Positions 19,118-21,525 of a DNA stretch of 32,420 bases are shown piece by piece. This DNA is from Planctomycetota bacterium. Lineage in GTDB: Bacteria > Planctomycetota > B15-G4 > SIAN01. The DNA lies in contig VGYY01000009.1 in NCBI GenBank assembly GCA_016872815.1, forward strand, positions 1 through 32,420, written 5' to 3'. Each line of letters opens with the position of its first letter. Positions within the stretch are counted from its first letter, which is position 1. A program made the position numbers and the translations under genes. A model generated the notes under the pieces. The model had not been told where the DNA came from. It did no database searches and was given only the letters and a program-made list of their open reading frames with translations.

Positions 19118-20221
19118 ATGACTCGTCCCGTCGTGTCCGCCGCCACCCCGCCGTGGACGGCACTGGTCGCACTCGCGCTGCTGGCGTCGACGGCGCCGGC
19201 GCAGGTGCAGGTGCACGCCGGCCCGAATCAGCGGCTGCCGGTCGGGCAGACCCTGACCCGGCTTGCCGGCAAGGTGCGCAACCTCTCGCCGCTCTCGTTC
19301 TGGGTGGCGGATGGCGATGGCGCGACCGAAGACAAGTTGCTGCAGTGGCACGACCAGACCGGCCTCACTTCGGTCGGGCCGCTCACCGACGGCGCCGGCA
19401 AGACCTACGGCTGGCCGAGCGACTTCGAGGAGATCCAAGGCGTCGTCTACGGCATCGAGACGTTCCACAAGAAGCTCTGCACGCTCGACGCCAACACCGG
19501 TGTGTGCACGCCGGTCGGCGGCACGCAGAAATACTCGCGGTTGTTCGGGCTCTCCTACGACGCGCAGAACGACAAGCTCTACGGCGTCGATCAGTCCAGC
19601 CGGAAGCTGCTGACCTTCGACCGCACCACCGGCGCGGCCACCGTCGTCCTGACGCTGCCGAGCAACTTCACCGACATCCGCGGCATCGCGTACAGCGGCG
19701 GCGACGGCAAGGTCTACTTCTGCGATGACGCCACCGAGACGCTGCAGCGCGTCGATCCGAGCACCAAGGTCGTGGAGCACGTGCTCGACCTGAACGACGG
19801 GCCGGACGCGAAGGTCGACGAGATCGAGTTCCATGCCGGGGCGCTCTTCTGCTCCTACCGGAGCTTCGACCCGGCGACCGCGCTCTGGTCGATGCAACTG
19901 GCACGGATCGACCTGGTCGACCAGATCGCCATCCCGTACGGGCCGGTCATCCCGGACTGCTCGGCGCACAGCCTGCTGATCCGCTCGGTTCCCGAGATCG
20001 TGCGCTGGGAACAGGTGGCGGGACCGCTCCCGGCCCACCTCGTCGACAAGTCCGATCCGACGACCCCGGTCCGCTTCGATGCGCCCGGGCGCTATGTCTT
20101 CGAACTGCGCGCGTCGACGTTCAGCCGGGTGCGCGACAGCGACCAGGTGATCATCGTGATCGAGCACGGTCCGATCCAGCCGCCCGGCAGCGGCGCCACC
20201 CCGCCGCGGACCACCAAGTGA
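19118..20221 (+). CDS. Secreted beta-propeller-like protein with C-terminal PKD/Ig-like segment
   Basis: Signal peptide (ALVALALLASTAPAQ), repeated blade-like units (GIAYSGGDGKVYFCDDATETLQRVDPSTKVV), C-terminal RFDAPGRYVFELRAS...VRDSDQVIIVIE. Confidence 0.65.
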   Translation: MTRPVVSAATPPWTALVALALLASTAPAQVQVHAGPNQRLPVGQTLTRLAGKVRNLSPLSFWVADGDGATEDKLLQWHDQTGLTSVGPLTDGAGKTYGWPSDFEEIQGVVYGIETFHKKLCTLDANTGVCTPVGGTQKYSRLFGLSYDAQNDKLYGVDQSSRKLLTFDRTTGAATVVLTLPSNFTDIRGIAYSGGDGKVYFCDDATETLQRVDPSTKVVEHVLDLNDGPDAKVDEIEFHAGALFCSYRSFDPATALWSMQLARIDLVDQIAIPYGPVIPDCSAHSLLIRSVPEIVRWEQVAGPLPAHLVDKSDPTTPVRFDAPGRYVFELRASTFSRVRDSDQVIIVIEHGPIQPPGSGATPPRTTK

Positions 20222-20697
20222 CCGACGGGCCGGCCAACGCGTCGGAGACCTTCCTCACGCTGCTCTCGGCCCACGCCGGGATGCTCGACCGCTTCCTGCA
20301 GCACCAGGAGGCGCTGCTGGCGCAGGACTTCGGTCGCGCGCTCGAGCGGCTCCTCGAGACGCGGCGGGAGTTCGAGCAGCACGTTCGCGCCGAGGAGGAG
20401 CTCTTCCCGCGGCTGTTCGCCGACAACGAGGTCCAGGGCACGCCGCTCGACCTCTTCACCGGCGAGCACAAGCACCTGCGCGAGCTGCTGACCGCGTTCG
20501 AGTCGGCCACGCGCCGGCTCGATCGCGCCGATCCCGCGGTGATGCGCCGCCTGATCGAGCTGATCGAGGAGGAGGCGCTCTGGAAGAGCTTCTTCCTCCA
20601 CCACGACGAGCGCGAGCGCAACCTCCTCTACCCCGCCTTCGACCGCGGCACCGCCGACGCCGGCCGCCAGGAACTCCTCAGCCGCTTCCATGCCTGA
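20218..20697 (+). CDS. Hemerythrin-domain protein
   Basis: GTG start overlapping the upstream stop (GTGA). EFEQHVRAEEELFPRL, FTGEHKHLRELL, FFLHHDERERNLLYPAFD iron-ligand pattern. Confidence 0.85.
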   Translation: MTDGPANASETFLTLLSAHAGMLDRFLQHQEALLAQDFGRALERLLETRREFEQHVRAEEELFPRLFADNEVQGTPLDLFTGEHKHLRELLTAFESATRRLDRADPAVMRRLIELIEEEALWKSFFLHHDERERNLLYPAFDRGTADAGRQELLSRFHA

Positions 20698-20751
20698 CAG
20701 ACTGATCCGACAAACTGTGCCTGGAACAGTTTGTCTGGATCAGTTTGTCTG
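20698..20751. repeat. Compound inverted + direct repeat / extended hairpin between convergent genes
   Basis: CTGATCC-GACAAACTGT-GCCTGGA-ACAGTTTGTC-T-GGATCAG: 10-bp perfect inner stem, 1-nt bulge, 7-bp outer stem. On the minus strand there are two tandem units CAGACAAACTGATC/CAGACAAACTGTTC. Lies entirely in the gap between stops at 20697 (+) and 20764 (-). Confidence 0.85.
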
Positions 20752-20763
20752 CGGCGACCGAGT

Positions 20764-21525
20764 TCAGCCGGCGAGCGCGACCGCCCCTTCGATCAGCAGC
20801 TTCCCGCCGGCGATGACCAGCACGGCGCCGAGCGCCTGGCGCAGCCGGAGCGGATCGAGCCGGCGCACGCCGAGCGAACTGCCGAGCAGCCCGCCGACCA
20901 GCACCGCCGCCGCGAACCACGGCAGCTCGCGCGGGAGCGTCTCGCTGTGCACGCGATGGCCGAGCAACCCGGCGATCGACGTGACCAGGATGTAGACCGA
21001 CGAGAGCGCCGAGATCTCGCGGATGCGCGCCCAGCGCCGCAGCAGGGCGAGCGGCGACAGGAAGATGCCGCCGCCGGTGCCGGTGATGCCGGAAAGCAGG
21101 CCGATCGCGCCGCCAACCGCCAGCGAGAGCGGCACGCGCGGGGGCCGCGGTTGCTCGATCTCCTGCTCGCCCTTCACCAGGAGCAGGCGCGCGGCGGCGG
21201 CCAGCAGCACCAGCCCGAGCAGCGGCTTGTAGAGCGCGGGCGAGACGGCGAGGCGGCCGCCGAGGAACGCCATCGGGACGGTCGCCAGCCCGAACGGCCA
21301 GAAGAGGCGCCACGAGAAGAGGCCGGCGCGGACGAAACGCCACACGCCGAGCGTCGCGACCACGATGTTCAGCAGCAGCGCGGTCGGCTTCATCTGCTCG
21401 GGCGCGACGCCGAGCAGCGCCATCGTCGCGAGGTAGCCCGACGCGCCGGCATGACCGACCGACGAGTAGAGCGCCGCAATCGCGAGGAAGGCCGCGCACA
21501 GCACCACGACGGTCGCGAGTTCCAT
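20764..21525 (-). CDS. Sulfite exporter TauE/SafE family membrane protein
   Basis: Multi-TM; AALYSSVGHAGASGYLATMALLGVAPEQMKPTALLLNIVVA and GLLSGITGTGGGIFLSPLAL are TauE/SafE signatures. Confidence 0.92.
   Translation of the reverse strand: MELATVVVLCAAFLAIAALYSSVGHAGASGYLATMALLGVAPEQMKPTALLLNIVVATLGVWRFVRAGLFSWRLFWPFGLATVPMAFLGGRLAVSPALYKPLLGLVLLAAAARLLLVKGEQEIEQPRPPRVPLSLAVGGAIGLLSGITGTGGGIFLSPLALLRRWARIREISALSSVYILVTSIAGLLGHRVHSETLPRELPWFAAAVLVGGLLGSSLGVRRLDPLRLRQALGAVLVIAGGKLLIEGAVALAG

Follow-up and report, generated by a model that had tools for sequence, protein, structure and literature searches.

A dispersed, untagged palindromic repeat family near gene 3' ends in two congeneric Planctomycetota genomes

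The stretch of DNA analyzed here (the window; 32,420 nucleotides, positions 1 to 32,420 of contig VGYY01000009.1, assembly GCA_016872815.1) comes from a Planctomycetota bacterium, referred to below as the host (genome G000). In the gap between two convergent genes it carries a long nested palindrome, which raises the question of what such a block is and how it came to lie there. The features of the locus are as follows, with half-units 3 and 4 given in their minus-strand reading.

20218 to 20697, plus strand: hemerythrin HHE-domain protein (Pfam PF01814, E 4.8e-10)
20695 to 20751, no strand assigned: nested palindrome of the form U.U.U'.U', folding to a 23-bp stem with one bulge
20696 to 20708, plus strand: half-unit 1, GACAGACTGATCC, outer left arm, one mismatch against GACAAACTGNTCC
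20709 to 20721, plus strand: half-unit 2, GACAAACTGTGCC, inner left arm, one mismatch, with 20719 to 20721 in the loop
20719 to 20725, no strand assigned: 7-nt loop GCCTGGA, from the fold
20723 to 20735, minus strand: half-unit 3, GACAAACTGTTCC, inner right arm, exact match
20737 to 20749, minus strand: half-unit 4, GACAAACTGATCC, outer right arm, exact match
20764 to 21525, minus strand: TauE/SafE-family exporter, convergent (Pfam PF01925, E 1e-34)

The TGA stop codon of the hemerythrin gene (20695-20697) forms the first bases of the element, which thereby supplies this stop one codon before the first in-frame stop of the orthologue in G002, a third congener; the stop codon of the TauE/SafE gene lies 14 bp from the outer arm. 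In the fold, positions 20696-20718 pair with 20726-20735 and 20737-20749 (10 + 13 bp; 23 bp in total); the stem includes one G.U pair, U20736 bulges out of it, and the loop measures 7 nt. The first-pass annotation, made from the sequence alone, had described a stem of 10 + 7 bp plus CAGA/TCTG between the two convergent stop codons; the fold confirmed the palindrome at this place together with its 10-bp part and its bulge, and showed that the outer arm, with 13 base pairs, had been slightly understated. The tandem reported there for the minus strand was likewise found, with CAGACAAACTGATC at 20738-20751 and CAGACAAACTGTTC at 20724-20737, and both of its halves also occur inverted, at 20696-20708 and 20709-20721. 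No U-tract follows the hairpin and a terminator scan identified nothing at the element, in line with the earlier statement that it is no textbook terminator; an Rfam scan of the window gave no match above the gathering score. The folding energy, calculated with 10-19 nt of flank included, was -45.1 kcal/mol versus -23.9 ± 3.0 kcal/mol in dinucleotide shuffles (z = -7.05; none of 200 shuffles was as stable). An uninterrupted 10-bp stem by itself is not unusual for a GC-rich window of 32 kb, and folding energy by itself did not separate the element from the surrounding GC-rich background. The element stands out from chance through the bulged 23-bp structure in its entirety and, above all, through the copies found elsewhere.

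In the host genome, exact GACAAACTGNTCC half-units cluster on many contigs as inverted pairs with a constant spacing of 14 bp, and the family unit consists of GGACAAACTGWTCC or GGAACAACTGWTCC paired with its own inverted copy. A covariance model built from 20 units recovered about 31 loci (best E 2.8e-12), a number to be taken as a lower bound with 150 candidates scored and the assembly in 470 contigs; the single, unconserved copy that had been named as the refuting outcome was not what we obtained. Scores were nearly equal on both strands, as expected for a palindromic unit. The consensus is a 51-bp palindrome, GGTGACGAACCGGAACAACTGATCCAGGATCAGTTGTTCCGGTTCGTCACC. Two symmetric types were distinguished, GGACAAAC..GTTTGTCC and GGAACAAC..GTTGTTCC, and each of the five clean 28-bp tandem arrays joins one arm of each type. 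Besides single palindromes and these tandems, three nested forms are present, the window copy among them. Contig C172 ends and contig C244 starts with the same sequence of about 190 bp, the one difference being a single 28-bp unit (L077, L079); the sampled population may therefore be variable in unit number, unless an assembly artefact or repeat-caused contig break mimics such variation.

In G001, a congener of the host, two weak hits exposed a second version of the repeat, a 51-bp palindrome with the consensus GGTGACGAAACCGACGTTCTGTGTCTGGATCAGATTGTCGGTTTCGTCACC. A pattern search gave sixteen copies, and a model trained on G001 copies alone gave 49 hits. Most of these hits represent the full 51-bp version (eight score as identical over 51 bp), and no isolated half-elements occurred among the matches of this model in G001. 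The flanks of the G001 copies diverge sharply, right up to the GGTGAC/GTCACC ends. The G001-only model also recovered host copies (best E 4.6e-8; window copy 6.8e-5). The units of the two versions have the same ends, a similar centre and a different yet still paired stem, with the shared nine-base ends occurring in a minority of host copies. Neither version was detected in 390 other Planctomycetota genomes including G002 (no match past 1e-5), and a strict pattern scan of GTDB genomes, from which close records may have been withheld, gave no match. A viral-contig collection contained no exact match to the patterns of either version, leaving a phage origin without support. In G001, a separate repeat of about 35-55 nt (TTCTGGCGAACGGCGAATGCCGGGGAGGTGGCGCA) is present in tandem and inverted orientation between two palindromes (L138 1741-1923; G001:C10:20740-20922), and stretches related to it were seen in L090 and L141.

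The position of the copies relative to genes was evaluated with gene calls from our own codon-usage script and not with an official annotation. Over both genomes, 33 copies lie between convergent genes, 37 between co-directional genes and one between divergent genes, versus 5, 66 and 17, respectively, for the remaining adjacent gene pairs of these loci (p = 1e-9 for the excess of convergent and p = 2e-4 for the deficit of divergent positions). The distance between a stop codon and the start of a copy is usually no more than 20 nt, and the stop often lies inside the copy. The bias towards gene 3' ends is strong. The sole copy called between divergent genes (L091; G001:C9:27160-27210) is 127 and 85 bp away from the gene starts. 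Coding-looking copies are few among roughly 80. They are in frame in host genes for Mur-ligase-like, DUF1501 and cytochrome c proteins, where they read (D/E)KLIQEQ; the called coding copies in the DUF1501 gene and on C3 are near the 5' end of the gene and may be extragenic if the true start lies later. In the Mur-ligase-like gene, the palindrome is in frame within the same linker in both species (L032 1228-2997; L146 102-1979); a second, degenerate copy stands beside it in G001, and the linker in G002 is a different one.

These properties allow a comparison with known repeat classes. REP/BIME and REPIN repeats are GTAG- and CGTC-tagged palindromes (PMC3733652, PMC3116915); REPs adjoin stop codons with a convergent or unidirectional bias, supply stop codons, and are in some cases intragenic (Di Nocera and co-workers, PMC3733652). 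Like REP, BIME and REPIN elements, the present repeats are short dispersed palindromes in single, tandem and nested form with many copies per genome, and like the REPs of PMC3733652 they adjoin stop codons, rarely lie between divergent genes, supply the stop in some cases and are in frame in a few. In contrast to REPs, they form one long symmetric palindrome of 51 bp instead of a tagged stem-loop of 20-40 bp, and they have no unpaired GTAG or CGTC tag, GTAG being missing from the 51-bp consensus. The CGTC-REP class was considered since the ends contain CGTC, and was rejected as GACG/CGTC lies paired and symmetric in the stem. Unlike in the REPIN/RAYT system, no RAYT gene (Y1_Tnp, PF01797) was found in either carrier genome; both are drafts (G000 94% and G001 84% complete), for which such an absence is no proof. 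Single Y1_Tnp genes were observed in two relatives, at L203 (G002:C46:73032-73355) and L204 (G003:C15:229641-229964). The repeat was not found in G002 or G003, and an association with RAYT was rejected because PF01797 was not found in the carriers and was found where the repeat was not. The REP/BIME-like nature put forward by the first-pass annotation therefore holds for the form (multi-copy, palindromic, single, tandem or nested, with a gene-3'-end bias); for the RAYT link there is no support.

Rickettsia palindromic elements (RPEs) are 105-146 bp long and are known both from intergenic positions and as in-frame fusions with conserved protein genes (PMC2229807). By description, the present family resembles them in combining palindromes between genes with a minority of in-frame copies in protein genes, and is set apart by its unit of 51 bp versus 105-146 bp. 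Like the MITEs RUP, ERIC and NEMIS (PMC2229807), it is non-autonomous, dispersed and built of inverted repeats with sharp ends, and its G001 copies are near-identical; a target-site duplication was not readable in the diverged empty sites, and no parent transposon with the ends of the repeat was identified. From a Rho-independent terminator it differs in that no U-tract directly follows the hairpin. Since neither a tag nor a RAYT gene was found, we refer to the family as an untagged REP/RPE-like palindromic repeat. The family is apparently undescribed; its kind, the bacterial palindromic repeat, is ordinary and known.

To compare the two carriers site by site, loci were aligned by BLAST and at their junctions, using subsets of orthologous sites of our choice, so that the proportions of shared and unshared sites should not be read as rates. 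The host and G001 both have a copy at eight or more sites (host C33, C36:10746, C154, C219, C76, C92, C49 and C5). With about 3,500 equally likely gene ends, we estimate that independent random insertion would give roughly 0.4 shared sites; many copies must therefore either be of old date or have come back to preferred sites. At four of the tested G001 sites, the host has no copy. For five of the shared sites, the aligned G002 orthologue showed no copy, the C49 site being cleanly empty; the orthologous hemerythrin/TauE gap of G002 also has no such palindrome. No target-site duplication was readable, as orthologous empty sites were too diverged at the junction. A proposed orthology of host C36:5123 with G001:C24:26693 was discarded, having no BLAST support and flanks that lead to G001:C10:19.8-21 kb. 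Over the central 41 bp, mean identity was 0.77 within the host and 0.92 within G001, versus 0.63 for orthologous copies and 0.61 for any cross-species pair; orthologues showed no clear gain in identity over reshuffled pairs (p = 0.06). Shared positions together with species-wise sequences point to homogenisation within each genome, to a return to the same sites, or to both.

We consider it likely that the window block belongs, as one copy, to a lineage-specific family of short dispersed palindromic repeats, which would have spread independently of RAYT, been shuffled by half-units and survived at gene ends. Units would spread by a copying process for which no detectable RAYT is needed, such mobility being the probable cause of their dispersal. 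Local rearrangement through duplication of 14/28-bp half-units would have given the nested form seen in the window. Inserts would persist mainly just past stop codons, the least harmful place, with a few persisting in frame in proteins; the 3'-end bias would then reflect tolerance. If transcribed, the element would fold into a stable hairpin at the 3' end of the mRNA from one or the other flanking gene, and this hairpin may serve to mark or protect the end. Against this explanation, no mobilising enzyme was identified in the two carrier genomes, target-site duplications could not be read at the diverged empty sites, and the filled sites common to both species are not required by a purely selfish element that moves freely.

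A refinement of this explanation, rather than an exclusive alternative to it, is concerted evolution, in which the positions date from a common ancestor, and the copies of each genome are kept alike by gene conversion or by new insertions, time and again, into sites already filled. The higher identity within than between species, despite the shared sites, is what this model predicts. However, an identical pattern would be expected from independent insertion at preferred sites, some sites have a copy in just one of the species, and there are no more than two carrier species; we therefore regard concerted evolution as a plausible but tentative addition. The more specific proposal that positions are conserved between the species while copies are driven, independently of RAYT, to a species-specific and still paired sequence appears doubtful. 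If true, it would imply a dedicated homogenising or copying machinery, or co-evolution with a trans-acting reader of the hairpin at gene ends.

The repeat might instead be a bidirectional terminator or 3'-end stabiliser maintained by the host, with the symmetric hairpin stopping or protecting both convergent transcripts, selection keeping it at gene ends and compensatory change keeping its pairing. The strong 3'-end and convergent bias and the sites kept in two species agree with such a role, as do the differing stems of host and G001, which both pair. Furthermore, where one arm shows the CA/AC swap, the opposite arm shows the matching TG/GT (about 10 copies of one type and 12 of the other, none mixed). 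This count excludes the diverged C5 copies and the 28-bp mixed tandem arrays, and the signal appears only with this grouping, which was made after seeing the data. These matched swaps may, however, represent two subfamilies instead of many independent events, and pairing was not above that of column shuffles (20 single 37-nt units, tandem arrays included). Only about 1% of gene ends carry a copy by our estimate, the same gene pairs do without copies in G002, and some copies are in frame within coding regions. Besides having no U-tract, most copies start 0-20 nt past the stop codon, where ribosomes repress intrinsic termination in E. coli, nearly abolishing it at tR2 (PMC4824070). Maintenance as a terminator or stabiliser is accordingly an unlikely explanation of the family as a whole. 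The window hairpin may act as a true terminator, but we do not favour this because of the missing U-tract, the proximity to the stop codon and the G002 gap without the element.

The AC-type half-unit GGAACAACTGTTCC is itself near-palindromic and the units are spaced at 14/28 bp, which would suit an array of binding sites for a dimeric DNA-binding protein, e.g. a LexA-like or nucleoid protein, that reads GGAACA-N2-TGTTCC, a motif that we take to coincide with LexA-type boxes; this protein-binding array, also raised in the first-pass annotation, is very improbable, as copies avoid divergent (promoter) intergenic regions (1 of 71) and the two half-unit sequence types are not equally suited to one recognition code.

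As a lineage-specific dispersed repeat, the element of the window adds a well-delimited palindromic family for the Planctomycetota, with the usual REP mobiliser not found in either carrier. With its many near-identical, recent copies in one carrier and empty sites in a congener, the family lends itself to the study of how untagged palindromic repeats spread, and of whether tolerance or function explains why REP-like repeats lie at gene ends.
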